A stretch of 33,311 bases of DNA, taken from Planctomycetota bacterium. GTDB lineage: Bacteria; Planctomycetota; Phycisphaerae; Phycisphaerales; SM1A02. The notes under the pieces are model-generated. The model was given only the letters and a program-made list of their open reading frames with translations. It was not told where the DNA came from and searched no databases. Each line of letters opens with the position of its first letter. Position 1 is the first letter of the stretch. The DNA lies in assembly GCA_016873115.1 (NCBI GenBank), contig VGYB01000024.1, positions 1-33,311 of the forward strand, read 5' to 3'. Shown piece after piece: positions 1 to 32,267 of the stretch. The translations under genes and the position numbers were made by a program.

Positions 1-43
1 TGGTTCCTGAGCTGGTTCCTGAGCTGGTTCCTGAGCTGGTTCC
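1..43. repeat. 12-bp tandem repeat (about 3.6 copies) encoding PAQE
   Basis: TGGTTCCTGAGC repeats perfectly at 1-12, 13-24 and 25-36, followed by a partial copy TGGTTCC at 37-43. The left end may continue outside the window. On the minus strand it is in frame with the exported protein and encodes repeated Pro-Ala-Gln-Glu. Because the unit is a multiple of three, copy-number change would alter linker length without breaking the frame. Confidence 0.85.
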
Positions 44-276
44 GACGGTTCATCGGGCTCGTTCGTTGGTTCCTGCGCGGGTTCACGCGAGGGATCGGCG
101 GGGCGCGTGGTCGGCGCAGTTGGTGGTGCGGGCTGCGGCGTGGGCGGGATCTGGCGGCCGCCCTGGGCCAAGGTGGTGGTTGCCGTGGGCAGCAGCGTCA
201 GGGTGGCCGCCGTGGCAAGCAGCGTGGTGAGCATGGTGGCGTTCGATCGGTTCACGGGAGTTCCAGGTCTGGTCAT
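1..276 (-). CDS. Exported protein N-terminus, probable T2SS secretin (GspD), partial
   Basis: The reading frame enters at ATG 276, 15 bases after the preceding gene's stop, and runs off the left edge of the window. A second in-frame ATG at 234 is an equally possible start. The first residues form a signal peptide: a short Arg-containing n-region, a hydrophobic stretch MLTTLLATAATLTLLPTA, and a likely cleavage after TTTLAQ. The mature protein begins with a Pro/Gln-rich segment and then PAQE tetrapeptide repeats encoded by the 12-bp tandem repeat at the edge. No conserved domain is visible in this piece. The secretin guess rests only on context: it ends a T2SS operon in which every other core component except the prepilin peptidase and GspD is present, and secretins are exported. 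No Shine-Dalgarno sequence is obvious. Any exported Pro-rich protein remains possible. Confidence 0.5.
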   Translation of the reverse strand, partial: MTRPGTPVNRSNATMLTTLLATAATLTLLPTATTTLAQGGRQIPPTPQPAPPTAPTTRPADPSREPAQEPTNEPDEPSEPAQEPAQEPAQEP

Positions 277-291
277 TGGTCGTTCGGTGGT

Positions 292-1204
292 TCAGTCGTG
301 CTTGTTGACTCGATCGATGAGCAATTGGCGTTCGCGCTCCAGCCGCTCTCTCACAGCTTGGTCGCTGGTGCTGCCGCGCAGCGCGCGGCTCACCTCTTCA
401 AGGGCCTTCGCAGCCTGCTCCCGGTCCATGGCCTCGATCGCCGAGGATTCCAGCGCTGGAGGCACGGCGGGTGGGAGATCACTCGATGCAGGCAGCGCGC
501 CGGAAGCGGGGGCTTCGGGCGTGACGGGCGCGGGCACCGATGCAGGTGTCGTGGCCGGGTTGGTACTTGGATCGGCGGCTACCGGCGTGATGCCCGGAGG
601 ATTCGTGCGACCTATCGAACTGCTTGAGCCCGACGAGAGCACGCTCGTATCGAACTTCTCGCGGAGCAAGACCGTGTACTCGCCGCCTGACCACTTGAGG
701 CGGACTTGATCCGGCGGAAGGATGGCCACGACCGTCACGCCGTCTCCTGACTCGCCGACCTTGACCGTGCGGCCGCCGGCAAGCACCAGGAGGTCGGCGA
801 CCACGCCCGTCGGGCGTGGCCCGCCGTAGGTCGCCGGTGGTCCAGCTGGCTTTGGGGGTGTCACTGGCTTGGGTGGTTCGGCTTGGACCACGGGTGCCGG
901 CTTGGGCCTGTTCGGCGGCTTGAGTGGTGTGCTTGGGCCTGTTCGGCGGCTTGAGTGGTGTGGTGAACAGACTGCGTCCCTCGAAGCGCTTGCGATGGAT
1001 CAGTGCCATCTGTTCATGACGCGTGAACTCCGGGCTCACCCGATCGGCCCGCTCGGGATCCACGCTCGGAGCCAGCAGCGAACCGCCAAGGTCACTGATG
1101 CCCGTCACGACGACGATGGCAAGCACCGTCACGGCGACGGCACTCGCGATCACGCGCGGCGATCGCAGGAGGTCGGTGGGAATGGCGTGGCGCAGGTCGA
1201 TCAT
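292..1204 (-). pseudogene. GspC/PilP-like inner-membrane T2SS component, broken by a 31-bp tandem duplication
   Basis: The start ATG 1204 overlaps the gspM-like stop (ATGA). The N-terminal frame encodes a short cytoplasmic part, one TM helix (about residues 17-37, VIASAVAVTVLAIVVVTGI), then a periplasmic segment leading into a Pro/Lys linker. After the duplication at 900-961 this frame becomes nonsense and stops at 479. The natural continuation lies in another frame and ends at 292: a Pro-rich linker, then a small beta-rich domain around VVAILPPDQVRLKWSGGEY, resembling the HR domain of GspC or PilP, and a helical C-terminus. Removing one 31-bp copy joins the frames into about 293 residues with a seamless linker (NRPKPAPVVQAEPPKP). 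GspC identity is inferred from architecture and operon position. As written, the gene yields about 241 residues lacking the HR-like domain. An assembly error is possible. Confidence 0.65.
900..961. repeat. Perfect 31-bp tandem duplication (900-930 and 931-961)
   Basis: Two identical 31-bp copies lie head to tail, beginning GCTTGGGCCTG and ending GAGTGGTGT. Thirty-one is not divisible by three, so the second copy shifts the reading frame of the gspC-like gene by one base. The frame before the repeat and the frame after it differ by exactly the phase expected from one extra copy. Confidence 0.95.
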
Positions 1205-1794
1205 GGCGTCCTCGCCTTCCCTGCGGTGACCCAAGCCTCGGCCATCAGCCGAACGCTCAGCTTCTTCGCCTTGTCGTCCCAGTCCATGCGTACGCTGCCG
1301 AGGGCGTCGACGGCGGGCGATGACTCGAGCGATTGGATGAACCCGAAGGTGTCCTGTGGGCTCGCGACGAAGTTCACCTCGCCGATCAAACGCTCGACGC
1401 GCGAGGCAATGCCCGCCGCGTCGGAGGCCGCCTTGGGGAGCTTGCCACCGGTCCGGGTCTGGAAGGTGTAACTCGAGACCTTGTTCTTCTTCGCTGCATC
1501 CTTCACCGCGATCGACAGCGCATTCGCGCCCTCGGCCTCGGAGCCGGGCAGGTCGAGCCGTCCGTACACCGCGATCGAGTCGCGCACCTTGCCGGGCAGG
1601 TCTTCCTCGTTCCGGGCGCCCTCGTGCAGCAGCTTCTGCACATGGTCGGCCTCGGCGGACCAGGAGCGCGCGAGCGCCCACGGATAGTCATCCAGGAACG
1701 TGTAGACGACCAGCGCGGCAACGACCGAGATGCCGGCGCGCATGATCGGCCGCTGCGCTTGGAAGCGCGCGATGGCGTCCTGGAGCAGGCTCAT
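1201..1794 (-). CDS. T2SS GspM/PilO-like inner-membrane protein
   Basis: This 197-residue protein has a short cytoplasmic N-terminus, one TM helix (about residues 19-36, RAGISVVAALVVYTF), a predicted coiled-coil/linker region, and a periplasmic alpha/beta part containing SVRMDWDDKAKKLSVRLMAE-like strands. GspM and its PilO relatives have this bitopic layout with a ferredoxin-like periplasmic fold and bind GspL in the inner-membrane platform. The sequence is too divergent to call by motif, so the assignment rests on topology, size and position directly after the gspL-like gene. The start ATG overlaps that gene's stop (ATGA at 1794-1791), and its own stop overlaps the next ATG at 1204. Both overlaps suggest coupled translation and fixed stoichiometry. 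Confidence 0.7.
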   Translation of the reverse strand: MSLLQDAIARFQAQRPIMRAGISVVAALVVYTFLDDYPWALARSWSAEADHVQKLLHEGARNEEDLPGKVRDSIAVYGRLDLPGSEAEGANALSIAVKDAAKKNKVSSYTFQTRTGGKLPKAASDAAGIASRVERLIGEVNFVASPQDTFGFIQSLESSPAVDALGSVRMDWDDKAKKLSVRLMAEAWVTAGKARTP

Positions 1795-3920
1795 GGCTTC
1801 CGTGTCCTTGCCTTGAGCATGTCGAAGTCCTTCTTCAGGCGCGCGGTGGTTTCCTCGTTGAGTCCATCCCGCTGGCGTACCCCTGCAATCATGATGAGCA
1901 TGTCGCGTGCTTCGTCTCGGCTCATCGCATCGACCTGGTCCTGCGTGAGCGCAGGTGGAATGGGTTGCTCGGCTGGCTGCGCTGCACCGACGGCGGGTCG
2001 TCCACGACGCGAGGCTTCGGTCGGCCCGCTGGCACCGGGCAGGCCACCCCGACGACCGCCACGGCCTTCGCGGGCCTCGCCAGCGGCTTCGGTCGAGCCT
2101 TCGCCATTCGCCGCAGCGACCTCGTTGCCACCGTCCGTTGCAGCGTTCGCATCAACCGTCGCAGGAGCACGGGCTGCTTCGCTTGCCGCTGTGGCTGCCG
2201 CACCAGCGGGCACCCGTCCCGTCGATCCACCAGCTGCCTCGGTGGCTGTGGCGATGGCCGCCTGGCCCGAACCCGAATCCCCTCCGGCCACCGTGCCGGG
2301 CACGACCGGCATGAGCGGGGAATCGCCCATGGCCACTGGTGTGGTCGTCGCGGGGACGGATGGGGTGGTCGGCGTGGAGCCGGCCTCGATGAGGAATCCG
2401 TCGCTGTCGATGGGTCCCCAGCGCTGCTCGGCGAGGGTCTTCTTGCCGTAATCCTGCGACTCCGCGTAGCGCACGATCAGCATCGGATCGGCGACTTGTG
2501 CGGTGATCGAGAACTCCGTGCTGCCACCCTTGGGTTCCTCCCAGCTCTTCACGATCCGCGCGAAGACCCTCGAGGAACGCATGCGTTCCTCCATCATCAC
2601 GATGGCATCCACGCTCGACAGATCGCCCAGGCCGCGCGCCAGGCCGCGCAACTGGACATTCGAGCCATGGTCGATGTTGATCGACTCGAGTTCGATGCCA
2701 TCGGGCGTGGTGCACGCGATGTCGCTGAGCAACTTGCTCATCGGCCAGCCGAGCTTGTCGACCTGGCCGTAGAGCGCGATCCGCCGCTCGCTCGACACCA
2801 TCGATGCCTCGAAGGCCGCTGCATCGGAGAGCCTGAACTTCAGCCACGCCAGACGAAGCCCGGCCACGGCCATCGGCCCGAGGACCACCGCGAGGCTGGC
2901 GGCGATGAGCGCACGCTTGGTGAAGGTCGGGTTGTCCATGCGCATCAGCGAGTCGATGATGAGCCCTTGGGATCGGCGCGGTTCGATGGGCAGCAGTCCC
3001 ATGAGCGGCGCGAGCGGACTGCGCAGGGCCAGCGCTACGCCGGCCAAGTCACCGAACTGCGCACGCCACCCGGCATCATCCGGTGCGCCGGCCAGTGCAG
3101 AGCCCAACGCATCAGCGCCAGCAAGTCCGACGAATCCCTTGGTGAACGCGGCCGGCATCGAGCGGCGTGCTGCAATCAGGTCCTCCTCGGACCAGTGTCC
3201 GAGCATCGCCGTGTCGTTGACCGCCTCGCTGATGGCGCCGGCGAACTCCGAGGCATCGTCGCTTCGTTCGATGAGCGTGCGCACCACAAGATGGCCCTCG
3301 CGCGAGGCCACGACCGCCACGGATCCCGTGGAGGCTTGCACGTCGATGCACATGCGGGCGGCGCGTCCCACGCCATCGGCTGACATCAGGCCCAAGAGAC
3401 CCGCCACCGGTGCAGTGAAGGTCACCCGCGGCGCAACGGGTCCATGCGTCGTACGACGCCCGTCGCCGGCCTTGAGGCCGGGCGGCAGATGGGCGGCACC
3501 GCTGGGCTTCCATTCGAGCACGATGCCCAGACGCTCCTCGGCACCGGTCGAGCCATCAGGCACGATGACGCACGCCGATCGGCACCGGGGCGCGTCGGGC
3601 GACAGAGCGCCCTCGGCTTGCAGGGCCAGAGCCTGCTGCTGCTGGGCGGGCGTCGCGCGGGGGAGGGGAATCGACCGCAGGATGACATCGCTGCCGGGAA
3701 CGACCACGACCACGCGCTCGGGCATCAGTTCGTGCAGCCACGGAGCCAGATCCTCGACGGCACTGCCGTCGCCACAGTCCGGGCCGAACTCCCCAGCCTG
3801 CTCGAACTGCACGCCCAGGGGGCCGAATCGAACAAGCAGCGCCTTCCAGCGCTCGCCCTCCGGACGAAGCACCGCGGCAAGATCGGCGGCGAGGGCTGGC
3901 TTGGTGGCGTTCTTCTTCAC
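1791..3920 (-). CDS. T2SS GspL-like platform protein (PilM-like plus PilN-like) with long low-complexity tail
   Basis: This is a 709-residue protein, long for GspL, which is usually about 400. Residues 1-330 form a cytoplasmic region compatible with the actin-like PilM/GspL fold, with strands such as ERVVVVVPGSDVILRSIPLP near the start. A single TM helix sits at about 336-357 (LIAASLAVVLGPMAVAG). Residues 360-480 resemble the PilN periplasmic domain, including LLSDIACTTPDGIELESINI and VQLRGLA. Residues 515-655 are Ala/Gly/Thr/Pro-rich low complexity with an RGGRRGG patch, and 656-709 form a short charged helix. GspL recruits the ATPase GspE to the membrane and contacts GspM. The stop of gspK overlaps this start (ATGA at 3920). 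The C-terminal extension is unusual and its role is unknown. Confidence 0.75.
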   Translation of the reverse strand: MKKNATKPALAADLAAVLRPEGERWKALLVRFGPLGVQFEQAGEFGPDCGDGSAVEDLAPWLHELMPERVVVVVPGSDVILRSIPLPRATPAQQQQALALQAEGALSPDAPRCRSACVIVPDGSTGAEERLGIVLEWKPSGAAHLPPGLKAGDGRRTTHGPVAPRVTFTAPVAGLLGLMSADGVGRAARMCIDVQASTGSVAVVASREGHLVVRTLIERSDDASEFAGAISEAVNDTAMLGHWSEEDLIAARRSMPAAFTKGFVGLAGADALGSALAGAPDDAGWRAQFGDLAGVALALRSPLAPLMGLLPIEPRRSQGLIIDSLMRMDNPTFTKRALIAASLAVVLGPMAVAGLRLAWLKFRLSDAAAFEASMVSSERRIALYGQVDKLGWPMSKLLSDIACTTPDGIELESINIDHGSNVQLRGLARGLGDLSSVDAIVMMEERMRSSRVFARIVKSWEEPKGGSTEFSITAQVADPMLIVRYAESQDYGKKTLAEQRWGPIDSDGFLIEAGSTPTTPSVPATTTPVAMGDSPLMPVVPGTVAGGDSGSGQAAIATATEAAGGSTGRVPAGAAATAASEAARAPATVDANAATDGGNEVAAANGEGSTEAAGEAREGRGGRRGGLPGASGPTEASRRGRPAVGAAQPAEQPIPPALTQDQVDAMSRDEARDMLIMIAGVRQRDGLNEETTARLKKDFDMLKARTRKP

Positions 3921-5266
3921 GGTTCCAGGTACTCCAAGATCGTCACGGGCAGGGTGGAACGATCAACGACGACGATCATTTCAACTTCCGTATCGGTTCC
4001 CGGGGCGCGCCCCCGGCTGGTGATGGTGTACACGGAACTCTGGGTGTCCATGGTGCGGGCCATCTGGGCAGCATCCTGCGGGCTCAGCCCGTCGATCCGG
4101 GAGAGCTCCCCGAGGGTCGTGATGCCGGTCGATGTATCGCGCCGGTCGATGATGCGCTGAGCGACCTTCGGCTCGAGCCCGTACACCTGCTCGAGCACGC
4201 GCTTGGAGACGGTGTTGATGTTCACTCGGCCCAGGTCGCCCGGCTTGGGTGCCTGGGTCACGCACTCGCGCAGCACGACATCAAGCTGCTCAGGCTTGAG
4301 CGTGGCTGATTGCTGTGCCGACGGGGCCTGCGCCCGGCCCGCGCTCGAGCGACCGCTTCGGCCGCGAGAACTCGTGGTCGGCGCCTGCTGCGCCTGCTGG
4401 CCCAGAGGCGTGCTGATGAGCTGCTCGACATAGAAGTTGGACTGCTTGGCCGACTCGACCAGTTGGGTCGCCTGCTGCTGCGACAGCCCCGTACGCTCGA
4501 CGATGTCCTGGGCCGTCGCGGTCTTCAGGTCGAGCCGATCCTCGCCGCCGAGCGTGCGCGGGAACGGGCGGGTCCGGGCCGTGAACATGCCGACAAGGCC
4601 GTCGTCGAGCACGCCATCTGCGTTGTCGTCGGGGAAGCTCGCGTCGCCGTCGTTCTCGTTGGGATCGAGCCGGTTGTTGAGGTTCCAGTCCTCGCCGCGG
4701 ACCTCCTTCGGCCACACGCCGAGGACCATCTCGAGCTCGGGGATCGAGCGGAAGTTCGCGTTGCGCGGCTCGTAATTGATGTTCAAGCGACCGAGGTACG
4801 AGCGTGACTCCGCCCCCGACATCTCCTCATCGTCGTTGGTGTCTCGCCAGTCGACGATCGCATCGGCCAGGAGACCCACATCATCCATGGTGTAGAGCTG
4901 CGCACGGCTCACCGCGTTGATGTTCATCCGCGAGTGCTCGTCGAACGGACCCGGGTAGATCGCGCCGTCGATCTCGTGGTAGATCTCAAAGGAGCCGGTG
5001 GAGAGCTCGTCGACGGCGTTGTCCTCGAGGTCGTTCACCATCGCGAATGCGCTGTCCGGTTCAGGGTTCTCGCTGTAGTACTCCATGATGGCGATCATGG
5101 TCTCGACGCCCGCTCGCGCGGCCCACCTGGCTTGCACCTTCGACATGGCCTCGCGGCCCATCACGGCCTGGCGGTAGCAGCCCAGTTGCGTCGCCGAGGT
5201 GATGAGCGCCGCCACGGCCACGCACCAGATCACGATCGGCAGCACCATCGCGCGGGGGTGCTTCAT
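3917..5266 (-). CDS. gspK: T2SS minor pseudopilin GspK with helix-hairpin-helix region
   Basis: This 449-residue protein begins with a prepilin-like hydrophobic helix (MVLPIVIWCVAVAALITSA, residues 7-25) without the Glu at position 5, as is usual for GspK. A large globular part follows. It contains SRMNINAVSRAQL and VDWRDTND elements typical of the family, an Asp/Asn-rich stretch at about 201-222 with an EF-hand-like DDNADGVLDD, and a ComEA-like helix-hairpin-helix region at about 344-405 (GRVNINTVSKRVLEQVYGLE). A Gln/Ser/Arg-rich linker lies at about 290-320. GspK caps the pseudopilus tip with GspI and GspJ. The gene overlaps both neighbours by four bases. The Asp-rich loop may bind calcium, as known for some GspK proteins; that is inference. 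Confidence 0.88.
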   Translation of the reverse strand: MKHPRAMVLPIVIWCVAVAALITSATQLGCYRQAVMGREAMSKVQARWAARAGVETMIAIMEYYSENPEPDSAFAMVNDLEDNAVDELSTGSFEIYHEIDGAIYPGPFDEHSRMNINAVSRAQLYTMDDVGLLADAIVDWRDTNDDEEMSGAESRSYLGRLNINYEPRNANFRSIPELEMVLGVWPKEVRGEDWNLNNRLDPNENDGDASFPDDNADGVLDDGLVGMFTARTRPFPRTLGGEDRLDLKTATAQDIVERTGLSQQQATQLVESAKQSNFYVEQLISTPLGQQAQQAPTTSSRGRSGRSSAGRAQAPSAQQSATLKPEQLDVVLRECVTQAPKPGDLGRVNINTVSKRVLEQVYGLEPKVAQRIIDRRDTSTGITTLGELSRIDGLSPQDAAQMARTMDTQSSVYTITSRGRAPGTDTEVEMIVVVDRSTLPVTILEYLEP

Positions 5267-6291
5267 CGTGCGCCTCCCCCTGAGGCCGGACCGCTACCCA
5301 GGCCGCGGCCTCCGCCGCCCTGGCCGCCGCGGCCACCACCTTGTCCGCGAACGCCGCCTTGGCCGGCACCCTGGCCGAACCCGCCGCGTCCACGCCCCAT
5401 GCCGCGGCCTCCGCGACTGTCGCCCGGAATCGTCACTCCGTCGGGGATCTGCACGCCCATGTTGCCGACGCCATCCACGCCAAGACCGGCCGCAGCGTCG
5501 CCGGCGGCCGCAGCGTCGCTTGCGGCGGCGGCTTCTGCCGCTGCCGCTTCAGCGGCCAGTTGCTGTTCGTAGGCGGCGATCTGCACCAAGGGAGGCGTCG
5601 CTCGATCGATGGGCACCACGGTCTGCAGCGTGACGAGGTCACGAACGAGCGGGTCGATCTCGGTGCCGGGTTCGTTGCCCAGTGCGCTCACGGTCACACG
5701 CAGCGCCCACGGGAGCCCGTCAAGGTCGCTGTCCCAGTCATCGCGCCACGCGCTGCCGTCGTATGCCTCGAAGCGCAGGCTCACCACGCCATCCATCAGT
5801 GGCACCGTGCTGCCGCCACCGCGCTCGTACTGGTCAGGCTGGCTGTCGACACGCATCCAGAGCGCTGAGCCAAGATCGTCGTCCTCGATGCGAAGGTGCG
5901 TCTCGAATTCCTGGCCGTCACCGTTGTACTCCGTCTCGCGGACCGTGCGCAGGCGCGTGTTGTAGACCAGCAGCTCATCGCGATCGACCTCGAGCCCCGG
6001 CGCGTCAGCGACGGTTGCGGTGTGGTCGTCCACGATCAGGACGCGGCAGTGGAAGAGGTCATCGCTGCGCAGCATCGACTGGAGTTCCTTGCGCACCGTC
6101 TCCATGGCGCCGAGGGCGCGGACATGAGCGTCCATACGGAGTTTGCAGACCTCTCTCGCGCGTCCGAACTGGCCAAGGCTCGTGGTGATCACGGCTGCGA
6201 TCACCACCGCGATCGTGGCGGCGATCAGCAACTCAGCGAGGGTGAAGGCTCGAAGGTCACGGCGCAACGGCGGCCTCCTCGTCCTTGCCAT
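5263..6291 (-). CDS. gspJ: T2SS minor pseudopilin GspJ with Ala-rich and Gly/Arg-rich tail
   Basis: The class III leader ends RDLRA|FTLAELLIAATIAVV, so cleavage follows Ala rather than Gly, with Glu at mature position 5. ATG 6291 is chosen because it gives a short basic leader; the frame stays open upstream to 6399 but would intrude further into gspI. The body (about residues 30-240) fits the GspJ fold and ends near LVTLQTVVPIDRA. After that comes an Ala/Glu/Asp stretch and a roughly 55-residue C-terminal tail made almost entirely of Gly, Arg and Gln, with repeated RGG and GRG motifs. This tail is not part of the normal GspJ domain. The gene overlaps gspI by 35 bases and gspK by four. It should act at the pseudopilus tip, where the tail would be periplasmic. 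Confidence 0.85.
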   Translation of the reverse strand: MARTRRPPLRRDLRAFTLAELLIAATIAVVIAAVITTSLGQFGRAREVCKLRMDAHVRALGAMETVRKELQSMLRSDDLFHCRVLIVDDHTATVADAPGLEVDRDELLVYNTRLRTVRETEYNGDGQEFETHLRIEDDDLGSALWMRVDSQPDQYERGGGSTVPLMDGVVSLRFEAYDGSAWRDDWDSDLDGLPWALRVTVSALGNEPGTEIDPLVRDLVTLQTVVPIDRATPPLVQIAAYEQQLAAEAAAAEAAAASDAAAAGDAAAGLGVDGVGNMGVQIPDGVTIPGDSRGGRGMGRGRGGFGQGAGQGGVRGQGGGRGGQGGGGRGLGSGPASGGGAR

Positions 6292-6706
6292 AGGCGCTCT
6301 GTCGATCAAAGGGTTCCGGCGGCCTGCGGTCGGGATTCGGGTCCTCACCCAGACGCGGTGCGATGCGCGTCTCGACGGTGTACGACTGGCCGCGCGCATC
6401 GCGCACCATGGCCGTCACCGTGTACGGGTCGCCAAGGCCCTCGGGATCGATCAGGATCTCGAACTCCCAATCCTCGAAGGGCGCGTCGAAGCGGCCTGAG
6501 GTGGCGTTGAGCTTGGGGAAGTCGATCACGCCGTCGACGAGCACCTGCGAAAGCAGTCCATCGAGCAGCGACGAGGCGATGACCTCGGCTTCGCCGCGAC
6601 GCTGCATGTCCATGGCGCGCATCGACACATTGATGATGCCGGCAAGCCCGACCGCCAGGATCACGCCGGCGATCACCACTTCGACGAGGGCGAAGCCGCG
6701 GCGCAT
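6257..6706 (-). CDS. gspI: T2SS minor pseudopilin GspI
   Basis: This 149-residue protein has a very short leader, MRRG|FALVEVVIAGVILAVGL, with canonical Gly at -1, Phe at +1 and Glu at +5. ATG 6706 shares a base with the TAA stop of gspH (TAATG), so termination-reinitiation is likely. The rest is a small globular domain (DWEFEILIDPEG, YTVTAMVRDARG) as expected for GspI, ending in a charged tail. GspI forms the pseudopilus tip complex with GspJ and GspK, the next two genes. The frame is open upstream to 6997, but that part lies inside gspH and has no pilin leader, so it is rejected as coding. Confidence 0.87.
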   Translation of the reverse strand: MRRGFALVEVVIAGVILAVGLAGIINVSMRAMDMQRRGEAEVIASSLLDGLLSQVLVDGVIDFPKLNATSGRFDAPFEDWEFEILIDPEGLGDPYTVTAMVRDARGQSYTVETRIAPRLGEDPNPDRRPPEPFDRQSAYGKDEEAAVAP

Positions 6707-7263
6707 TACCAGTCCTCCTGGGTCAGTCCGCTTGAGTCGAGGTCGACGCCCTCGCGCTCGGCCACCAGCGACACGCCGTTGTCCGCGCGTCGGGGGATCA
6801 ACTGGGTCGAGGGCAGGCGCAGTTCGGTCTCGCCCGAAGGTCCGACCCAGGTCATCACGATGTCGGGCCGGCCACCCGACGGGATGCTTGCGATGATCCA
6901 GGTCCGGGGGTCGAGTTCCTGGCCATCGGCCGTGATCGCCACCAGTTCCATCTCGCTCGGCACCCGGAACGGCTTGACCATCGTGTCGTACTCCCACTGC
7001 GCCTCGGCCTCAAGGCCGGGCGGGCGCTTCATCACGACCACGGCGATGTCGCCGGTCTCGCCATCGCGCATGAGCGCCACCTGCTGCGTACCCGACGACT
7101 CGCGGTAGGCGAACATCGCCAGCACCTGCTCCATCTGCGACATCGCCGAGTCGTGGCTGAACCAGCCCAGGCCGGCCATGCGTGGCACGACCGCCGCCGC
7201 GAGCACCACCAGGATGATGGTCGCCACGAGGATCTCGATGATCGTGAACGCGCGGTGGAGCAT
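6706..7263 (-). CDS. gspH: T2SS minor pseudopilin GspH
   Basis: This 185-residue protein has leader MLHRA|FTIIEILVATIILVV, which places Glu at mature position 5 and Ala at -1. A hydrophobic N-terminal helix is followed by a beta-rich globular domain (about residues 40-170) with segments such as WIIASIPSGGRPDIVMTWVG. GspH-type minor pseudopilins link the GspI-J-K tip to the GspG shaft. It starts seven bases after the gspG stop and overlaps gspI. Assignment between GspH and other minor pseudopilins rests on order (G-H-I-J-K) and size. Confidence 0.8.
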   Translation of the reverse strand: MLHRAFTIIEILVATIILVVLAAAVVPRMAGLGWFSHDSAMSQMEQVLAMFAYRESSGTQQVALMRDGETGDIAVVVMKRPPGLEAEAQWEYDTMVKPFRVPSEMELVAITADGQELDPRTWIIASIPSGGRPDIVMTWVGPSGETELRLPSTQLIPRRADNGVSLVAEREGVDLDSSGLTQEDW

Positions 7264-7270
7264 CAGGTGA

Positions 7271-7711
7271 TCACTTGACGGGAGGTTCGCTCAGGCGGAT
7301 GTCGGCGTCCTCGCCCTCGCCACCGGGCTGGCCATCCGCGCCATAGCAGAGGATGTCGAACTCGATGCCGGGGGGCACATCATCGAAATCGAGCACATAG
7401 TCGTTCTTCCACGGGTCCTTGAGCGCGCTGGCAGGCATGAACGGCGGATCACCCTCGATCAGCTCGGCGAGCTCGAAGTCGTCGCCGAGCGAGCTCATGC
7501 CGTTCTGGGTCATGTAGATGGCGATCTGGTTGTTCAGCGTGGCCATCTCGCTGAAGGCGCGCTTCTGCTTGGAGGTGCCGATGAGGAAGCCCAGGCGCGG
7601 CACGAACACGGCGGCCATGATGGCGAGGATCGTGACTGCGATCAGGATCTCGATGAGGCTGAACGCGCGGCGGGCGCGACGGCGGTTGGAGCGGGAGGGG
7701 TGCATGGTCAT
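7271..7711 (-). CDS. gspG: T2SS major pseudopilin GspG
   Basis: This is the shaft subunit of the pseudopilus. The basic leader ends RRARRA|FSLIEILIAVTILAIM with Glu at +5. The C-terminal part carries the family signature DPWKNDYVLDF and then YGADGQPGGEGEDADI, the calcium-binding loop that stabilises GspG. ATG 7711 is chosen because GAAAGGAACC precedes it; ATG 7705 (third codon) has better spacing from that Shine-Dalgarno sequence and is also plausible. An upstream GTG at 7747 touches the gspF stop and would add 12 residues, which is less likely. The protein is 146 residues, normal for the family. A prepilin peptidase (GspO) is required but none is present in this window. Confidence 0.93.
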   Translation of the reverse strand: MTMHPSRSNRRRARRAFSLIEILIAVTILAIMAAVFVPRLGFLIGTSKQKRAFSEMATLNNQIAIYMTQNGMSSLGDDFELAELIEGDPPFMPASALKDPWKNDYVLDFDDVPPGIEFDILCYGADGQPGGEGEDADIRLSEPPVK

Positions 7712-7746
7712 GGTTCCTTTCGTCGGGGTGCGGTTGGAGCGAGGCA

Positions 7747-8997
7747 CTAGGCGCCCAGGGCGGTCTGCATGTTCAGGAGCGGCAGCAGCATGCCCAACAG
7801 CACGAATCCGGCCACGACCGACATGACCAGGATCAGGGCGATGGGCAGGATCTTGGTGAAGAGCTTGAGCGAGTTGTTGACCTGCCGGTCGAACGCACCA
7901 GCCGCATGCATCAGCATGGGCTCGAGCTTGCCGGACTTCTCGCCGATGTTGACGATCTGGATGAGCAGCGGCGGAAAATACCCGCTGCGCTCCATCGGAT
8001 CGGCCAGCGACGCGCCGGTCGACACACGGTCGCTCACATCATCGATGGCGGCCATCATGGCGTAGTTGCCCAGCGTGTCGCGCACGGTGCGCAGGGCCGT
8101 GAGGATCGGGATGCCCGCACTCACGAGCGTGCCCAGCGTGCGCGTGAAACGCGCCACGGCCACATCGCGCAGCAGCGTGCCGAGCACGGGGACCTTGAGC
8201 AGGGCGGCATCGACGATCATGCGGTTGGAGGGCACCCGGAGCCATCCGCGCAGGGCGAACCAGCCGATGGTGGCCCCCAGCAGCATGACCCACCACCAGG
8301 CCCCCACGAAGGAAGCCAGGCTCATCAGGACCTGCGTCGGCCAGGGGATCGCGATCTTGGTCCCGCTGGCGATCGGCGCCAGCAGCTTCGGCAGCACGAA
8401 GGTCACCATCGTGATGATGCTCGCCGCCATGACGCCGGCCAGGATCATTGGATAGATCGTCGCACCGATCACCTCGCGGCGCAGCTCGACACTGCGGTCG
8501 AGCAGGTCGGCGAGCTGGTGCATGATCTCGCTCATGCGGCCGGTGGCATCGGCTGCGCGGAGCATGCCGACCGTCATCTCATCGAACGGCGGGCCGTAAT
8601 CCTTCGCGGCCTGGAAGAGCGGCTGCCCGGCCTCGACCCCTTCAATCAGGTGATCGAGGATCACCGGCAGCGCCTTGCCCGCCGCCTGGCGACGCGTGGT
8701 CTTCAGCGCCTGCATGAGCGGCAGGCCGGCTTCGAGCGCCGTGGCGAGCTCCCGCACCAGGTTGGCGAGTTCCGCGCGGTTGATCGTTGGGCGGCCACGC
8801 ACGGCCGCGGTCTGCACCGGACCCGAGAGACGCGACGCGCGGCTCCTCACAGCCTCGACACCCTCGGCCTCGAGCGACAGCGGCAGGATGCCACGCTCGC
8901 CGAGCATGCGCACTGCGCTGCCGCGATCTGACGCCGACACGGAGCCGATGCTCATCGTGCCGTCAGGGCCCATGGTCTGGTAGCGGAAGCTCGGCAT
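7747..8997 (-). CDS. gspF: T2SS inner-membrane platform protein GspF
   Basis: This polytopic protein of 416 residues is the usual GspF length. It has an N-terminal ARM-like region (PSFRYQTMGPDG), then two homologous T2SSF domains. The first contains LANLVRELATALEAGLPLMQ with YPMILAGVMAASIITMVTF as a TM segment. The second contains FTRTLGTLVSAGIPILTAL and LIQIVNIGEKSGKLEPML, followed by a C-terminal TM (LPIALILVMSVVAGFVLLG). A further pair of TM segments lies between the two domains. GspF sits at the centre of the assembly platform and converts GspE ATPase motion into pseudopilus assembly. It starts three bases after the gspE stop. Confidence 0.94.
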   Translation of the reverse strand: MPSFRYQTMGPDGTMSIGSVSASDRGSAVRMLGERGILPLSLEAEGVEAVRSRASRLSGPVQTAAVRGRPTINRAELANLVRELATALEAGLPLMQALKTTRRQAAGKALPVILDHLIEGVEAGQPLFQAAKDYGPPFDEMTVGMLRAADATGRMSEIMHQLADLLDRSVELRREVIGATIYPMILAGVMAASIITMVTFVLPKLLAPIASGTKIAIPWPTQVLMSLASFVGAWWWVMLLGATIGWFALRGWLRVPSNRMIVDAALLKVPVLGTLLRDVAVARFTRTLGTLVSAGIPILTALRTVRDTLGNYAMMAAIDDVSDRVSTGASLADPMERSGYFPPLLIQIVNIGEKSGKLEPMLMHAAGAFDRQVNNSLKLFTKILPIALILVMSVVAGFVLLGMLLPLLNMQTALGA

Positions 8998-9000
8998 GGA

Positions 9001-10668
9001 TCATGTCTTGGTGGGCGCGTCGTCGAGGTCCTGCGTCGCACGGAGCACTTCGCTCACCGTCGTGTCGCCGTCGATCGCCTTGCGTACACCGTCCTTGCGC
9101 ATCGTGATGAAGTCATCGCCGAGCAGCGACTTGAGCACATGCACCGGCTCGCCCTCGGCCACGGCCTGGCGCAGCGCGGGGTGGACCTTGATCAGTTCGT
9201 AGAAGCCGAGTCGGCCGCGGAAGCCCGACCCACGGCATTCGTCGCAGCCCAGGCCCGCCCACGCGTTGGGGCCGAATTGCGATCGTTCATCGGGCGCCAG
9301 TCGGGATCGAAGGTCCTCTCCCAGCGGGGCCTGCACGCGGCACGCTCTGCAGATGCGCCGACCAAGCCGCTGCGCCAACACGCCTTCGGCCACGCTCGCG
9401 ATCAGGTAGGGCTCGGCTCCCATGTCGCCGAGTCGTCCGAAACTGCTGACCGAGTCGTTGGTGTGGAGCGTGCTGAAGACCAGGTGCCCGGTGAGCGCGC
9501 TGCGGATCACGATGTCGGCGGTCTCGCCGTCGCGGACTTCGCCGACGAAGATCACGTCGGGGTCCTGTCGCAGGATCGCGCGGAGCCCCGTGGCGAACGA
9601 CAGACCGCGCTTGGGATTCACGGGGATCTGGTTGATGCCCGTGAGCTCGTACTCGACGGGATCCTCGATCGTGATGATCTTCTTGCGCGGGTCGTACAGC
9701 TTGCTCAGGGCCGCATAGAGCGTGGTCGTCTTGCCGCTTCCGGTCGGACCGGTCACGAGCACGAGGCCGTGGGGCTTCTCGATCAGCCGGTCCATCGTCA
9801 TGCGGTGCGACTCGGACATGCCGAGCGTCTGCAGGTCGAGCCGCAGGTTGCTCTTGTCCAGGATGCGCATGACGATGCTCTCGCCATAGATCGTGGGCAC
9901 GGTTGACACGCGGATGTCGACCTTGCGACCTTCGAACTTCAGCGCGATGTGCCCATCCTGCGGCACATAGCGCTCGGCGATGTTCATGTGCCCCATGATC
10001 TTGACACGGCCCGCGATCGCGGCTTGCAGGTGCTTGGGGGGCTGCGGCTGCTCCATGAGCACGCCGTCAATGCGGTACTTGACCTTGAGCTCGCTCTCAA
10101 AGGGCTCGATGTGGATGTCACTCGTGCGGCTCTGGATGGCCTCGAGGATCAGCAGGTTCACGAGGTTCACCAGCGTCGGCGCCTCGGCCATGCGGTGCAC
10201 ATCGTCGGCCTCGATCGCGTCGAGATTGTGCTCGCTCTCGCTGGACGCGTCCTCGCTCGAGCCGCCGAGGCTCTCGGCCATGCGTGCGGCCGTGGTGCCG
10301 TAGCACTTGCGGATCAGCTCGGCGAACGCTGCAGCCTCGACGCCCACGCGCTGCACGCGCCGCTCGACGATGGTGCTCACTTCGTCCGCAGCACCGATGT
10401 CGAAGGGATCCACCATCGCCAGGACGAGTCGACCGCTGCGCTCGCGCAGCGGGACCACGCGGAGCCGCACGGCGACATCGGGCAGCAGCAGCCCGACCAC
10501 GGCCGTGTCGGCTTCGGGTGCCTTGTCGTGCCATTCGATGCCAAGCGCGGCGCATCGTTCGCGCAGTCGTTCTTGCTCGTCCTTGGTGGAGCCGGGGACC
10601 TGAAGCAGGGTCTCGGCCGGTGCCTGCTCGGTCTCGGAGGTGGTGGTGTCGAGGGGCTGCTGTTGCAT
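9001..10668 (-). CDS. gspE: T2SS assembly ATPase GspE
   Basis: This hexameric cytoplasmic ATPase powers pseudopilus assembly. ATG 10668, 13 bases after the preceding stop, gives 555 residues; the longer open frame would overlap the upstream gene. Residues 35-125 form the N-terminal MshEN/T2SSE_N region that binds GspL. Walker A is GPTGSGKTT (307-315), the Asp box includes TIEDPVEYELTGINQ, and Walker B is DPDVIFVGEVRD (370-381). The His box STLHTNDS follows. A CxxC-x31-CxxC zinc motif uses Cys440, 443, 475 and 478 (CRACRV and CDECRGSG). The tetracysteine element places it with the GspE/PilB class rather than the PilT retraction ATPases. Confidence 0.96.
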   Translation of the reverse strand: MQQQPLDTTTSETEQAPAETLLQVPGSTKDEQERLRERCAALGIEWHDKAPEADTAVVGLLLPDVAVRLRVVPLRERSGRLVLAMVDPFDIGAADEVSTIVERRVQRVGVEAAAFAELIRKCYGTTAARMAESLGGSSEDASSESEHNLDAIEADDVHRMAEAPTLVNLVNLLILEAIQSRTSDIHIEPFESELKVKYRIDGVLMEQPQPPKHLQAAIAGRVKIMGHMNIAERYVPQDGHIALKFEGRKVDIRVSTVPTIYGESIVMRILDKSNLRLDLQTLGMSESHRMTMDRLIEKPHGLVLVTGPTGSGKTTTLYAALSKLYDPRKKIITIEDPVEYELTGINQIPVNPKRGLSFATGLRAILRQDPDVIFVGEVRDGETADIVIRSALTGHLVFSTLHTNDSVSSFGRLGDMGAEPYLIASVAEGVLAQRLGRRICRACRVQAPLGEDLRSRLAPDERSQFGPNAWAGLGCDECRGSGFRGRLGFYELIKVHPALRQAVAEGEPVHVLKSLLGDDFITMRKDGVRKAIDGDTTVSEVLRATQDLDDAPTKT

Positions 10669-10681
10669 GGGTTCCAGTCGT

Positions 10682-12007
10682 TCAGCGCGGGGCGTCGCCG
10701 CCATCGCCGCCGCCCTTGCCGCGCTGGTTGGGGTTCTGCGTGCCCAATGTGCCGCCTTCGAGGCCCATCGGTACGCCGTCATCGCTGCGGAGCGCCTTGC
10801 CCTTCTTGGAGGAGTCGGAGCCCGGCTTCGAGCTCTCCTCATCCCGCTCGAGGTACTTCTCGATGCCCGGGATCTTCGCCTTCTGCTCCTCGTTGAGCAC
10901 GGCGATCACGCGCTTGCGCGCATCCTCGATCAGGCGGTCTCGTTCGGCGATCAGGTCCTTGTATGGCTCCTGTTCGCCCTTGCTCGCGTTGACATTGCGC
11001 GCTTGGTCTGCGGCAAGCCGCGCGCGCTCCGTCTCGCGCTCAGGCTCGACCTCGCGGACCTTGGCCACGAACCTGGCCTGGAGCGCGTTCATCGAGTCGT
11101 TGAACACCGAGCGGATCGCGTTGATCTGGGCAAGTTGCTCGGCCGAGAGGTCTGCGATGGCGAACACATTCTCGAAGAACGGATCGAGCGGGGGAGTACG
11201 GCACGCCAAGGGGTACGCGTCGCGCATCGCACGCTCACGGAACTTCGGTCCCCATTCGGCACCGAACGCCGTGGCCAGTGCCTCGATGTGAGCATCGGTC
11301 ACATCGCGCACCGCGATGCGCGCAGCCACGATGCGCTCGAGCTCCACGAGCCCGGCGGCGGGATCGTTGTCGGTGAGGGACTTGCGGATGCGGGGTTGGC
11401 TCACTTCCTGCTGCTTCATGCGCTGCATCAGCGCCAGATCAAGCGCCGTCTCATAGGCGGCGATGGCATCCTTGGCCTCGATGCGGTTGTCCAGGGGCAC
11501 ATCGATCTGGCGCATGACGATGACCAGGTCGGTCTTCTCGCCGCTCAGACGGCCCTGCGGCAGTTGCTTCTCGCGGCGCAGCGCACGCTCGAGGCTCGGC
11601 CATCGCTCAAGCTGCGCGTCGGAGAGTTGTCCCTTGACGTCATCGAGGAAGCGCTGCTTCATCGCTTCCTTCTCGGCCTTCCACGCTTCGATGGGCTTCA
11701 TCAGCACGGTGAGCGCACCGTGCTCGCCAGCGCCAGCGATCTGGTCCTTCATCGAGGTGAGTGTGTCGCGCAGCCCTTGCTCGCCGGCCCGGTACTCGGC
11801 CTGATAGTCGACCAGCATGGCTTCGAGCACTTGCTTCTGCCAGTCCTCAAGCTGGAGCGTGTCGACGAACAGCGACATGTCCCGGGGCATGAAGTCGGTC
11901 GAGAAGATCTCGTTGAAGCCGGCCTCACGCGGCAATTGCGCGTGCACGAGGGGAGTGATCGCGAGGGCGGCGGCGGCGACAGTCGTGACGAGCAAAAAAC
12001 GCTTCAT
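10682..12007 (-). CDS. Exported helix-rich protein at the head of the T2SS operon
   Basis: Translation from ATG 12007 gives 441 residues with a clear signal peptide, MKRFLLVTTVAAAALAITPL, cleaved near HAQ. GGAG lies about ten bases upstream. The mature protein is nearly all amphipathic, charged helix, with repeated patterns of the type LQLEDWQKQVLEAMLVDYQ, LSDAQLERWPSL and LSAEQLAQINAI. These recall the LTxxQ helical hairpins of Spy/CpxP-like periplasmic proteins, though the length is several times greater. The C-terminal 40 residues are Lys/Ser/Gly-rich and disordered. No known domain can be named with confidence. It is followed after 13 bases by gspE, so it is probably co-transcribed with the secretion machine and may be a periplasmic partner or regulator of it; that is inference from position. 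Confidence 0.75.
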   Translation of the reverse strand: MKRFLLVTTVAAAALAITPLVHAQLPREAGFNEIFSTDFMPRDMSLFVDTLQLEDWQKQVLEAMLVDYQAEYRAGEQGLRDTLTSMKDQIAGAGEHGALTVLMKPIEAWKAEKEAMKQRFLDDVKGQLSDAQLERWPSLERALRREKQLPQGRLSGEKTDLVIVMRQIDVPLDNRIEAKDAIAAYETALDLALMQRMKQQEVSQPRIRKSLTDNDPAAGLVELERIVAARIAVRDVTDAHIEALATAFGAEWGPKFRERAMRDAYPLACRTPPLDPFFENVFAIADLSAEQLAQINAIRSVFNDSMNALQARFVAKVREVEPERETERARLAADQARNVNASKGEQEPYKDLIAERDRLIEDARKRVIAVLNEEQKAKIPGIEKYLERDEESSKPGSDSSKKGKALRSDDGVPMGLEGGTLGTQNPNQRGKGGGDGGDAPR

Positions 12008-12981: not shown

Positions 12982-14217
12982 GTGCAGCGACTGGTCTGTC
13001 TGCTCATCTTCCTCTCGGCCCTTCCCGATGCCATGGTCGTGCCCGTGCTGAAGGACCTCTGTGTGGACCGTTACGGCGTGACCCGCACCGAGGCGCAGGC
13101 GTTCCTGTTGGTCAACCTGCTCGGCGCAGCCGCGGCCATCGGCGTGGTCGCTCGGCTCCAACGCTCGATCGAACCGGTTCGGTTGCTGGTCCTGGCGTCC
13201 CTCCTGGACGCGGTCCTCATCGCATGCCTATGGCTCCCGCTTGGATGGCCGGGGACGATGGCCGTCCGAGCGCTGGAGGGCGTTCCAGACGCCATCACCT
13301 TCGGTGTGCTGATGCAGCTGCTCGGCCGCTCGGATTCAGGCTCGGTAGCCAGTCGCCTGGGCTTGGGCTCCATGGTGCTCCTCGGCGGGGTCGGTTGTGG
13401 CATGACCATTGGAGGCCTGGCAGCGAAGCTCATGGTGCTCCTCGGCGGGGTCGGTTGTGGCATGACCATTGGAGGCCTGGCAGCGAAGCTCATGGGCCCG
13501 GGGTCGGAACGGGTGGTCTTCGTCCTGGGGGCAGGCAGTTCGGCCCTTGTGGCCGCACTGGCGGCCGCTCGGCCCGACGATCTTCGGGGGGCGGCCGAGT
13601 TGCACCAACCCCAACCATCCACGATGCGGGGGGCAGGCGCGCCGTTGGAGACCGCGCGCAATGTCCCGGCATGGGTCGTGCTGGCGATGGCGTTCGTCGA
13701 TCGCGCCACGGGAGGCGTGCTCACCGGCACGCTGAGCCTCTTCCTGGCCGGCTTCTACCCCTACGACGCTGGCGAGCGGGGGTGGATGGTGGGGTTGCCG
13801 CTCTTGGCCATGGCGGTGGGAGCGTGGCCGGCGGGCGCCCTCGCCCATCGGATCGGCACGCTTCGCGTGCGGCAGTGGACTGGCGCGATCTACGCGCTCG
13901 CCCTGGCTGTGGTGCCATTCGTCAGCGAGTCGCAGCTTGCCCTGGTCAGCGTGCTCGCCGTGCTGGGGCTCGCCGGGGCGGCTCTGCTCCCAACCAGCCT
14001 GGCACTGGAGCACGCCGTTGATCGAGGACCGGTCGGTTTCACCGCGTTTGCCACCAGTGGTGGTGTGGGCTACGCCAGCGGTGCGGTGATTCCGGTGATG
14101 GTGCTCGGTGTGGCCGGCGACGGGGCGTCGAGTTACCAGGGCATCATCGTGGGCTTCGCGCTGCTGCACGCTGCGGTGACATGTTGCGCCGTGGCCGCGT
14201 CACGGCCACGGCAGTGA
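12982..14217 (+). CDS. MFS transporter with duplicated motif-C helix
   Basis: The start is taken as GTG 12982, directly before the first hydrophobic helix (LVCLLIFLSALPDAMVVPVL); the frame is open upstream to 12922 and no Shine-Dalgarno sequence decides. The 411-residue product is highly hydrophobic with about twelve TM segments. A central loop (about residues 205-230, LHQPQPSTMRGAG) separates two halves, as in the major facilitator superfamily. The predicted fifth helix contains a motif-C-like GCGMTIGGLA. That helix is present twice: residues 131-150 and 151-170 are identical because of a 60-bp duplication. An extra TM would invert the topology of the second half unless one copy stays out of the membrane. 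The substrate cannot be inferred. Without the duplication it would be 391 residues, normal for MFS. Confidence 0.8.
   Translation: MQRLVCLLIFLSALPDAMVVPVLKDLCVDRYGVTRTEAQAFLLVNLLGAAAAIGVVARLQRSIEPVRLLVLASLLDAVLIACLWLPLGWPGTMAVRALEGVPDAITFGVLMQLLGRSDSGSVASRLGLGSMVLLGGVGCGMTIGGLAAKLMVLLGGVGCGMTIGGLAAKLMGPGSERVVFVLGAGSSALVAALAAARPDDLRGAAELHQPQPSTMRGAGAPLETARNVPAWVVLAMAFVDRATGGVLTGTLSLFLAGFYPYDAGERGWMVGLPLLAMAVGAWPAGALAHRIGTLRVRQWTGAIYALALAVVPFVSESQLALVSVLAVLGLAGAALLPTSLALEHAVDRGPVGFTAFATSGGVGYASGAVIPVMVLGVAGDGASSYQGIIVGFALLHAAVTCCAVAASRPRQ
13371..13490. repeat. Perfect 60-bp tandem duplication (13371-13430 and 13431-13490)
   Basis: The two copies are identical base for base, starting CATGGTGCTCCTCGGCGGGG and ending CAGCGAAGCT; the first four bases recur after the second copy. 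The unit is exactly 20 codons, so the frame is kept. Perfect identity, including wobble positions, means a very recent event or an assembly artefact. Confidence 0.95.
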
Positions 14218-16149: not shown

Positions 16150-18309
16150 ATGGATGCCGTGAGCGAAACCACCGCAAAGCGTCGCAAGGGAGCCACTGCC
16201 GAGGAACTGGCCACGCGCCAGCGTGACATCTCGGTCAGCGAGTTCTTCGCCAAGAATCGCCACCTCCTGGGCTTTGACAATCCCCGCAAGGCGCTGCTCA
16301 CGGCCGTCAAGGAAGCCGTCGACAACAGCCTCGATGCCTGCGAGGAAGCCAGCATCGTTCCCGAGATCGCCGTCATCATCGAGGACCTGCAGCCCGAGCG
16401 CCCTGCGAGCGCCAAGAGTTCGCGCTACCGACTGACGGTCATCGACAACGGCCCCGGCATCGTGCGCAAGCAGGTGGAGAACATCTTCGGGCGATTGCTG
16501 TACGGATCCAAGTTCCATCGCCTGAAGATGAGCCGGGGCCAGCAAGGGATCGGCATCAGCGCAGCGGGCATGTACGGCCTCATCACGACGGGACGCCCGA
16601 TGGTGATCCATACGAAGCCGAAGGCGGGTGGCCCGGCCCACCACATCGAGCTGGCGATGAACACCAAGACCAACCGCGCGGAGGTCACCACCGACGACGA
16701 GGTCAAGGACTTCCCGCCGGCGCGTTTGGCAGGACTGTCATCGGGGACCAAGGCGCTCTCGGCAGAGGGTGGCTTCCTCTCGACCGAGGCGTTCCGGACC
16801 GGCACCAGCGTGAGCATCGAGCTCGAGGGCCGCTACCAGCGCGGCCGCGGCAGCGTCGATGAGTTCCTCGAACTCACCGCCATCGCCAACCCGCACGCGC
16901 GCATCACCTTCGTGCCCCCTTCGCGTGAGTCATCGGAGGACGACGAGGGATCGATCCTCGCCGGCGCCGAGGCAAGTGCTGCGACCAGGGCCACGGCCAC
17001 GACCGAGACCGGCGGCGTCGTCATCTATCCGCGAGGCGTGCACGAACTCCCTCCGGAAACGCGTGAAATCCAGCCGCATCCCAAGGGCATCGAGCTCGGG
17101 ATCCTGCTGCAGATGCTCAAGGACTACGAAGCCACCGAGAAGGGAAGCCTCTTCAAGTTCCTGCAGGAGCGTTTCTGCCGTGTGAGCAGCGCGACCGCGG
17201 CGCAGATGTGCAAGGCCGCCGGGGCCACGAGCCGCACGCGCGCCGGCGACATCGAGGCGCCGCAGGCCGAGAAGCTCTTCCAGTTCTTCCAGGAGGTCAG
17301 GCTGCCGCCGCCGCCGACCGATTGCCTTGCGCCGATCGGCGTGCGCCAACTGCTCGCTGGTCTTCTCAAGGGTGTGCGCGCCGAGTTCTACGCCGCCAGC
17401 AGCCGCAGCGCCGAGGTCTATCGCGGGCGTCCGTTCCAGATCGAGGCGGCGATCGCCTTCGGCGGCGATCTGCCCGCCGACGATCCTGCGCGCGTGATCC
17501 GCTTCGCCAACCGTGTGCCGCTGCTCTTCCAGCAGAGCGCATGCAGTTCCTTCAAGGCAGTGCTTGAGACCGGCTGGAAGAACTACAACCTGCAGCAGCC
17601 TCGCGGGAGCCTGCCGGCCGGACCGATCGTGATCATGCTCCACATGGCCAGCGTCTGGGTGCCGTTCACCAGCGAGAGCAAGGAAGCGATCGCCGACTAC
17701 GACGAGATCCGCAAGGAGATGAAGCTCGCACTCATGGAGTGCGGCCGAAAGCTCGGCACATACCTCAACAAGCGCGCGAAGATGCGTCGCGAGGGCGAGC
17801 GGCGCGATGTCTTCGAGCGCTACATCGGAGAGATCGCCAAGGCCGTCAGCGCGATCACCGGCGAGGACGCCAAGCGCCTCTATGACGCACTGCACGCGCA
17901 GGCCAAGCGCAAGACCGCCGTCGCCGACCAGCAGCTCGACGAGGATGGGAGGGTCGTCCGTGGGCAGGAAGACCCCGACGACGATGGCGTGATCATCGTG
18001 CCCGAGGCGATGACGGGCGGCCCCGTCGACGAAGCCATGAGCGGTCCCCAATCGGAGGCGCCTGGGCGGCGGCCGGCCACCAGGGCGCCCGGGGAACGGC
18101 CGGCGCGCGCCAAGCCTGCCGCCTCGTCGCCGCCGGCGAAGGCCTTGCCCAGGGCCAAGCACGCGTCACCCAAGGCCGCGTCGCCCAAACGAGCGTCCAA
18201 ACCCGCCTCCAAGCCTTCCGGCAAGCCCGCCCCGGCAGCGCCGCCCAAGGTCCCGCCGCCGCGCCCAGCCCCGCGCCGCACCTTCCCCGATGGTCCGACC
18301 CTCTTCTGA
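16150..18309 (+). CDS. top6B: DNA topoisomerase VI subunit B
   Basis: This is the GHKL-ATPase subunit of the type IIB topoisomerase, which gates DNA passage through an A2B2 complex. The Bergerat fold is clear. The N box is VKEAVDNSLDACEEA (residues 53-67), G1 is VIDNGPGIV (97-105), and G2 is SRGQQGIGISAAGMYG (128-143). An H2TH-like region lies at about 310-380. The transducer domain at about 395-560 includes the switch lysine in ETGWKNYNLQQPRG. Residues 640-719 form a Lys/Pro/Ala-rich basic tail with repeated SPK/KPAS elements, ending TFPDGPTLF. At 719 residues it is longer than the roughly 530-residue archaeal proteins. The A subunit follows 18 bases downstream. Topo VI is typical of archaea and plants; bacterial copies are sporadic. 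Confidence 0.94.
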   Translation: MDAVSETTAKRRKGATAEELATRQRDISVSEFFAKNRHLLGFDNPRKALLTAVKEAVDNSLDACEEASIVPEIAVIIEDLQPERPASAKSSRYRLTVIDNGPGIVRKQVENIFGRLLYGSKFHRLKMSRGQQGIGISAAGMYGLITTGRPMVIHTKPKAGGPAHHIELAMNTKTNRAEVTTDDEVKDFPPARLAGLSSGTKALSAEGGFLSTEAFRTGTSVSIELEGRYQRGRGSVDEFLELTAIANPHARITFVPPSRESSEDDEGSILAGAEASAATRATATTETGGVVIYPRGVHELPPETREIQPHPKGIELGILLQMLKDYEATEKGSLFKFLQERFCRVSSATAAQMCKAAGATSRTRAGDIEAPQAEKLFQFFQEVRLPPPPTDCLAPIGVRQLLAGLLKGVRAEFYAASSRSAEVYRGRPFQIEAAIAFGGDLPADDPARVIRFANRVPLLFQQSACSSFKAVLETGWKNYNLQQPRGSLPAGPIVIMLHMASVWVPFTSESKEAIADYDEIRKEMKLALMECGRKLGTYLNKRAKMRREGERRDVFERYIGEIAKAVSAITGEDAKRLYDALHAQAKRKTAVADQQLDEDGRVVRGQEDPDDDGVIIVPEAMTGGPVDEAMSGPQSEAPGRRPATRAPGERPARAKPAASSPPAKALPRAKHASPKAASPKRASKPASKPSGKPAPAAPPKVPPPRPAPRRTFPDGPTLF

Positions 18310-18327
18310 TCGAGCACGAGCACCACC

Positions 18328-29828: not shown

Positions 29829-29883
29829 GCCCGAAGCGTAGCCGACCGCCGCCCCCTGATCGTGAACGCCGGGGCACGGACCA

Positions 29884-29917
29884 GAATCCCCGTCCGCACG
29901 CGATCCGGCGGGGATTC
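29884..29917 (-). terminator. Long hairpin between the short nfeD gene and floA
   Basis: GAATCCCCG (29884-29892) pairs with CGGGGATTC (29909-29917), and CCG/CGG extends the stem past a bulged T to about 12 bp around a nine-base loop. It overlaps the short nfeD stop codon and lies 56 bases before the floA start. It could be a terminator, attenuator or processing site that sets floA level relative to nfeD. Confidence 0.5.
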
Positions 29918-30497: not shown

Positions 30498-30525
30498 GCT
30501 GCGAGCCCTCGTGTGAGATGGTCGA

Positions 30526-32217: not shown

Positions 32218-32267
32218 GTCTGCGTGATGGTACGCGCAGCGCATGCACCGACAGCCCATCAGATGAA

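Follow-up and report, generated by a model that had tools for sequence, protein, structure and literature searches.

A type II secretion operon at the contig edge

The window analysed here is an entire contig (C24, 33,311 bases) from a 2.36-Mb draft genome that is 95.9% complete and assembled in 87 contigs. One end of it carries a type II secretion system (T2SS) operon arranged in the order gspE, F, G, H, I, J, K, L, M, C, D (Table 1), with the gspD frame staying open onward on a second contig of the same draft, C20. Pfam models support E, F, G, J and K, and a weak NCBIfam match supports L; the matches to the NCBIfam models of GspE, F, G, J, K and L all lie below their curated cut-offs, and the gspM-like gene yielded neither a Pfam nor an NCBIfam match. 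When E to M were compared with two congeners, no frame change was observed over the parts available for comparison, the last 53 residues of J being unaligned. As far as this comparison extends, it supports the view of the first-pass annotation that the T2SS is otherwise intact. The unaligned C-terminal tail of gspJ (5263-5424, after residue 325) contains a degenerate 30-bp repeat at 5323-5393. According to an excerpt of a published study, few T2SSs are predicted outside the Proteobacteria (PMC4793230).

Elsewhere on the contig, the genes of the type IIB DNA topoisomerase subunits are adjacent on the plus strand (16150-19449, topoisomerase VI B and then A), and a FloA flotillin-like gene lies near an NfeD gene on the minus strand (28827-32259).

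Table 1. Features of the window, with the evidence on which each assignment is based.
Feature	Position	Strand	Evidence
gspD secretin start	1..276	-	continues on contig C20; secretin domain at C20:2048-2533, E 4.9e-45
Interrupted gspC-like gene	292..1204	-	translations in two frames; intact orthologs
Frame read from the start codon	479..1204	-	native for ~91 residues, out of frame from there to a premature stop at 481-479
HR/PilP-type domain (predicted)	634..858	- (displaced frame)	model, mean pLDDT 55; best VIA-align 2 row GspC 3oss_C, Z 6.3
Exact tandem duplication	900..962	.	31-bp unit x 2.03, 63 bp, 100% matches, Tandem Repeats Finder
gspM-like, intact	1201..1794	-	position; 95% identical to G120 and G123, ungapped, residues 1-195
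gspL-like, intact	1791..3920	-	TIGR01709 E 2.8e-6 (under cut-off); residues 1-709 aligned in two congeners
gspK	3917..5266	-	T2SSK_1st E 2.1e-9; NF037980 E 9.9e-20
gspJ	5263..6399	-	T2SSJ E 2.1e-6; aligned to two congeners over residues 1-325 of 378
gspI-like pseudopilin	6257..6706	-	ATG at 6706, prepilin-like N terminus; named by position
gspH-like pseudopilin	6706..7263	-	N_methyl E 4.9e-4 (under cut-off), prepilin-like N terminus; named by position
gspG major pseudopilin	7271..7747	-	T2SSG E 4.2e-11
gspF	7747..8997	-	T2SSF E 3.9e-51; TIGR02120 E 1.2e-95 (under cut-off)
gspE ATPase	9001..10842	-	T2SSE E 1.6e-126; TIGR02533 E 3.9e-170 (under cut-off)
Exact tandem duplication, in frame, MFS transporter gene	13371..13495	.	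60 bp x 2.08; MFS_1 E 2.2e-10, above cut-off

A 31-bp tandem duplication interrupts the gspC-like gene

The gspC-like gene is split over two frames: its N half consists of a membrane anchor and the start of a Pro-rich linker, and its C half, which lies in another frame, of the remaining linker, an HR-like domain and a C-terminal tail. At the start of the linker sits an array of two identical 31-bp units (copy identity was checked) followed by one extra matching base. The first-pass annotation had placed this array at 900-961; the duplication itself was confirmed, yet its extent had been given one base short, as the array ends at 962. A chance repeat was ruled out, since none of 100 first-order Markov sequences as long as the window contained an exact array of at least two copies with a period of 15-300.

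The frame opening at the ATG (1204) comprises 241 codons and loses its native course after the first 31-bp copy (~residue 91), while the downstream native frame, also on the minus strand, can be read without interruption from position 999 down to 295 and terminates at the stop codon 294-292. As 31 is not divisible by 3, the extra copy puts translation out of the native frame ahead of the HR domain; the resulting protein retains the anchor and ~91 native residues but not the HR domain. A fragment initiated within the displaced frame would be without the anchor.

The locus is present in all eight congeners searched. Seven of them carry a complete ortholog, which reads through as a single frame of 289-309 aa and contains the 31-bp unit once, and the start (1204) and end (292) of the gene studied here match these orthologs. 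The eighth, G118, is cut off by its contig end beyond the junction, where it too has one copy. Thus, the alignment with related genomes that had been proposed as a check returned a single copy at the junction in 8/8 congeners, and by sequence comparison the duplication is specific to the genome under study among the genomes examined. The uninterrupted orthologs rule out two separate genes and bear out both the single-gene view and the proposal that one extra 31-bp copy splits that gene. Homologs from other genera of the family share the same layout, i.e., an N-terminal hydrophobic segment, a GRSxF motif, a Pro-rich linker and a beta domain, in an alignment of 15 sequences (five congeners and 10 of 11 others, with homolog L040 from another genus and congener L045 left out). 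Related proteins occur in seven named records, labelled as Phycisphaerae (2), Planctomycetaceae, Planctomycetia, Planctomycetota, Singulisphaera sp. and an uncultured bacterium (1 each), and six of the titles contain "MAG".

We also considered whether +1 ribosomal frameshifting could still give full-length GspC. The two open frames overlap between 999 and 481, where a +1 shift would rejoin the native frame; however, the congener genes need no such shift, and a shift away from the array would insert foreign residues, making this reading extremely improbable.

Position, layout and predicted fold point to GspC

Several lines of evidence, namely position, layout and predicted fold, make GspC-like the best name for this gene. 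It adjoins gspD in the T2SS operon, the secretin being reached across the contig join. In all six orthologs scanned, 19-residue stretches with a mean Kyte-Doolittle value of at least 1.6 start at residues 12 to 27, and the native N part in the window has the same hydrophobic peak, starting at residue 18; this hydrophobicity scan points to the single N-terminal membrane anchor characteristic of GspC.

As to the fold, a low-confidence model of the 75-residue HR piece (pLDDT 55) was compared using VIA-align 2, run on Foldseek's candidates. Its best match was GspC 3oss_C of enterotoxigenic E. coli (Z 6.3, rmsd 2.1, 57 aligned), a score to be read with the tool's own caution that Z values below 8 may reflect a common arrangement only. 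Six of the top eight matches are T2SS or type IV pilus entries (GspC, GspB, 4av2_M, LspC, PilP and the PulC HR domain), the other two being a Tudor domain (Z 4.7) and a Dot/Icm chain (Z 3.8). Plain Foldseek returned no match for the same piece at E 0.001. The HR-like domain that had been predicted downstream of the break is thereby supported, by VIA-align 2 on a low-confidence model. The model of the full ortholog is weak (pLDDT 45) and ends in a predicted helical tail.

Profile searches were less telling. Pfam T2SSC (PF11356) had no match in the genome under study at E 10, and a Pfam search of 15 relatives found neither T2SSC nor PilP. NCBIfam GspC_delta matched three of the 15 relatives under its cut-off (best E 0.025), and NF041515 scored 13.2 bits against the ortholog of one congener, where the cut-off is 150. 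No match to E. coli K-12 GspC was obtained with hhalign. In sequence searches of the PDB, one profile found no match and another found three, the best being a weak one to bactofilin (2n3d, E 0.012). On sequence, then, membership in GspC is left unassigned, no curated profile having been matched at its cut-off.

Like GspC proteins (PulC, XcpP, LspC), the product is encoded directly before gspD in a T2SS operon and has one N-terminal hydrophobic segment, a Pro-rich linker and, according to the model, an HR-type beta domain. Unlike them, it matches the corresponding profiles under cut-off or not at all, and it has a predicted helical tail at its end. Moreover, C and D come last in this operon, whereas in E. 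coli K-12 gspC and gspD lie ahead of gspE. The HR-like model also resembles PilP of type IV pili, aligning to 2y4y_B (Z 4.6) and to 4av2_M (Z 4.9), the latter from an entry on PilQ complexes whose chain M we take to be PilP (both scores are below 8). The product nevertheless differs from PilP in its membrane-anchor-like N terminus with no cysteine in the first 60 residues, and in the location of its gene within an operon with gspE, F, G, J and K.

The stranded half shows no clear sign of decay

We assessed selection on the two halves of the gene separately. Read in its own frame, the C half gave dN/dS values of 0.101-0.140 against seven relatives, compared to 0.077-0.180 in the 21 pairs of intact relatives. 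The N half gave 0.037-0.074, with one value slightly above the range of the relatives' pairs (0.015-0.070). Private amino-acid changes numbered six of 128 in the C half (0-13 in relatives) and six of 163 in the neighbouring gspM (0-10 in relatives); the N half had three of 74, the highest of the set (0-2 in relatives). With neither an excess of non-synonymous or private changes nor a further stop in the C half, an old pseudogene was ruled out, and the stranded half carries no clear sign of decay after the break. A search for a second gspC in the same genome found none at E 0.001. Given the lack of relaxed selection on the C half, and of a second gspC at this threshold, the lesion would be either very young or an assembly error. 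The dN/dS values and private-change counts of the C half thus support the "very recent" option of the first-pass annotation.

A real duplication is favoured over an assembly error

If the duplication were an assembly error, the organism would have one copy and an intact gene, the second copy having arisen during assembly, for example where two graph ends were joined with a 31-bp overlap left unmerged. Consistent with this are the division of the draft into 87 contigs, the fully selected appearance of the C half, the single copy in 8/8 congeners and the presence of another exact duplication, of 60 bp, elsewhere on the contig.

The contig ends provide evidence on the other side. The first 127 bases of contig C20 are the exact reverse complement of the first 127 bases of the window, an overlap which, in this one contig-end pair, suggests the trace of a de Bruijn assembler with a word size of 127. 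As this apparent word size exceeds the 63-bp array, the array would be read inside single words and its junction directly, making an invented copy unlikely. The 127-bp overlap itself (1-127) falls in the gspD start and its 12-bp repeat. It suggests a branch in the assembly graph, and hence perhaps strain variation beside gspC.

In addition, no N bases occur in the 1,145,115 bases examined of this genome, and no other interrupted gene was recognised in the window span compared with two congeners. In a frame-change scan against these congeners with laxer filters, 12 of the 276 relative ORFs with a match gave a frame change, two of which are gspC (one per relative); the other ten, by their coordinates and frames, are antisense to predicted genes, read in a different frame from them or span their ends. 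A stricter frame-break scan gave nine rows, one of them gspC, the match of gspC to G123 being lost to its strict overlap filter.

The second duplication on the contig adds 20 residues to an MFS transporter gene. It is absent from all seven congeners in which the gene occurs, where tblastn alignments show gaps of 20-28 residues, and overlapping nucleotide pieces were found at it in all three relatives processed; the region had no match in congener G119. Two genome-specific duplications on one contig hint at a local cause, possibly a technical one. Assuming random placement in the sampled sequence and that only two such events exist, both would fall in the window by chance with a probability of ~0.0008, a rough and post hoc figure; of the 15 arrays seen elsewhere, one was examined for genome specificity. 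These counts refer to exact arrays of at least two copies with a period of at least 18, of which there are two in the window and 15 rows elsewhere (in 1,145,115 of 2,355,203 bases, window included). Three of the 15 have at most 2.2 copies, with periods of 33, 18 and 78. The 78-bp array, on contig C36, has about the same matched length in six of the eight congeners and is about one unit shorter in the other two (G116 and G123); by this comparison it is an older in-frame repeat. By eye, the starts of contigs C7 and C26 (L055:18-209 and L110:1-160) seemingly share one 56-bp tandem unit, inverted relative to each other, and may be parts of a single broken array.

Taken together, the contig overlap, the shortness of the array and the lack of any other recognised interrupted gene favour a real mutation, and we consider an assembly error unlikely, if worth keeping in mind. 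The gspC-like gene has probably undergone a real and very recent tandem duplication of 31 bp, an ordinary loss-of-function mutation, and from the assembled sequence we infer that the two-copy allele is present in living cells.

Proposed consequences for secretion

Under the favoured reading of a recent loss-of-function mutation, a replication error would have doubled 31 bases where the Pro-rich linker begins. With only one base in common, the two ends of this unit offer little help for slippage. The cell would then produce the anchor without the secretin-docking HR part. The HR domain of GspC docks on the secretin GspD; with this contact lost, the T2SS would presumably be blocked in secretion. 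A short direct repeat of this kind may also collapse back at low frequency, and we see no sign of evolution for that.

Such collapse raises the question of an evolved phase-variation switch, in which the linker gains or loses a 31-bp copy and secretion is turned off or on, as the first-pass annotation had offered among its options. The two exact copies of a frame-breaking unit in a gene that otherwise appears selected would fit such a switch. Duplications in pneumococcal capsule genes offer a precedent: in excerpts of the respective papers, sequence duplications in these genes are called reversible (PMC4243769) or said to have the potential to revert (PMC4022640). The case described here resembles this inactivation (Waite et al. 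2001, 2003), as far as those excerpts describe it, in that a short tandem duplication located within the reading frame inactivates a gene and is revertible in principle; it differs in that it concerns another gene in another phylum and is known from one assembled sequence. However, the array has only two copies, and the copy-number variation among relatives expected of a phase-variable locus was not found, one copy being present in 8/8 congeners and two only in the genome under study, i.e., there is no conserved switch element. With no congener carrying the second copy, an evolved switch is improbable, and we give this option, which the comparison does not support, little credence.

We give slightly less to a related scenario, in which one- and two-copy gspC alleles coexist in a population and the duplication is a revertible off state of secretion: cells would save the cost of exoenzyme export and live on their neighbours' products, regaining export upon collapse of the repeat.

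These findings call for caution with frame-breaking short tandem duplications in draft metagenome assemblies, and they indicate that comparison with congeners, combined with a selection test on the stranded half, can show that such a duplication is confined to one lineage and arose very recently. Should the allele prove to be both real and common in the population sampled, it would represent a natural loss of T2SS function in a planctomycete-type bacterium, one that could be traced in reads.
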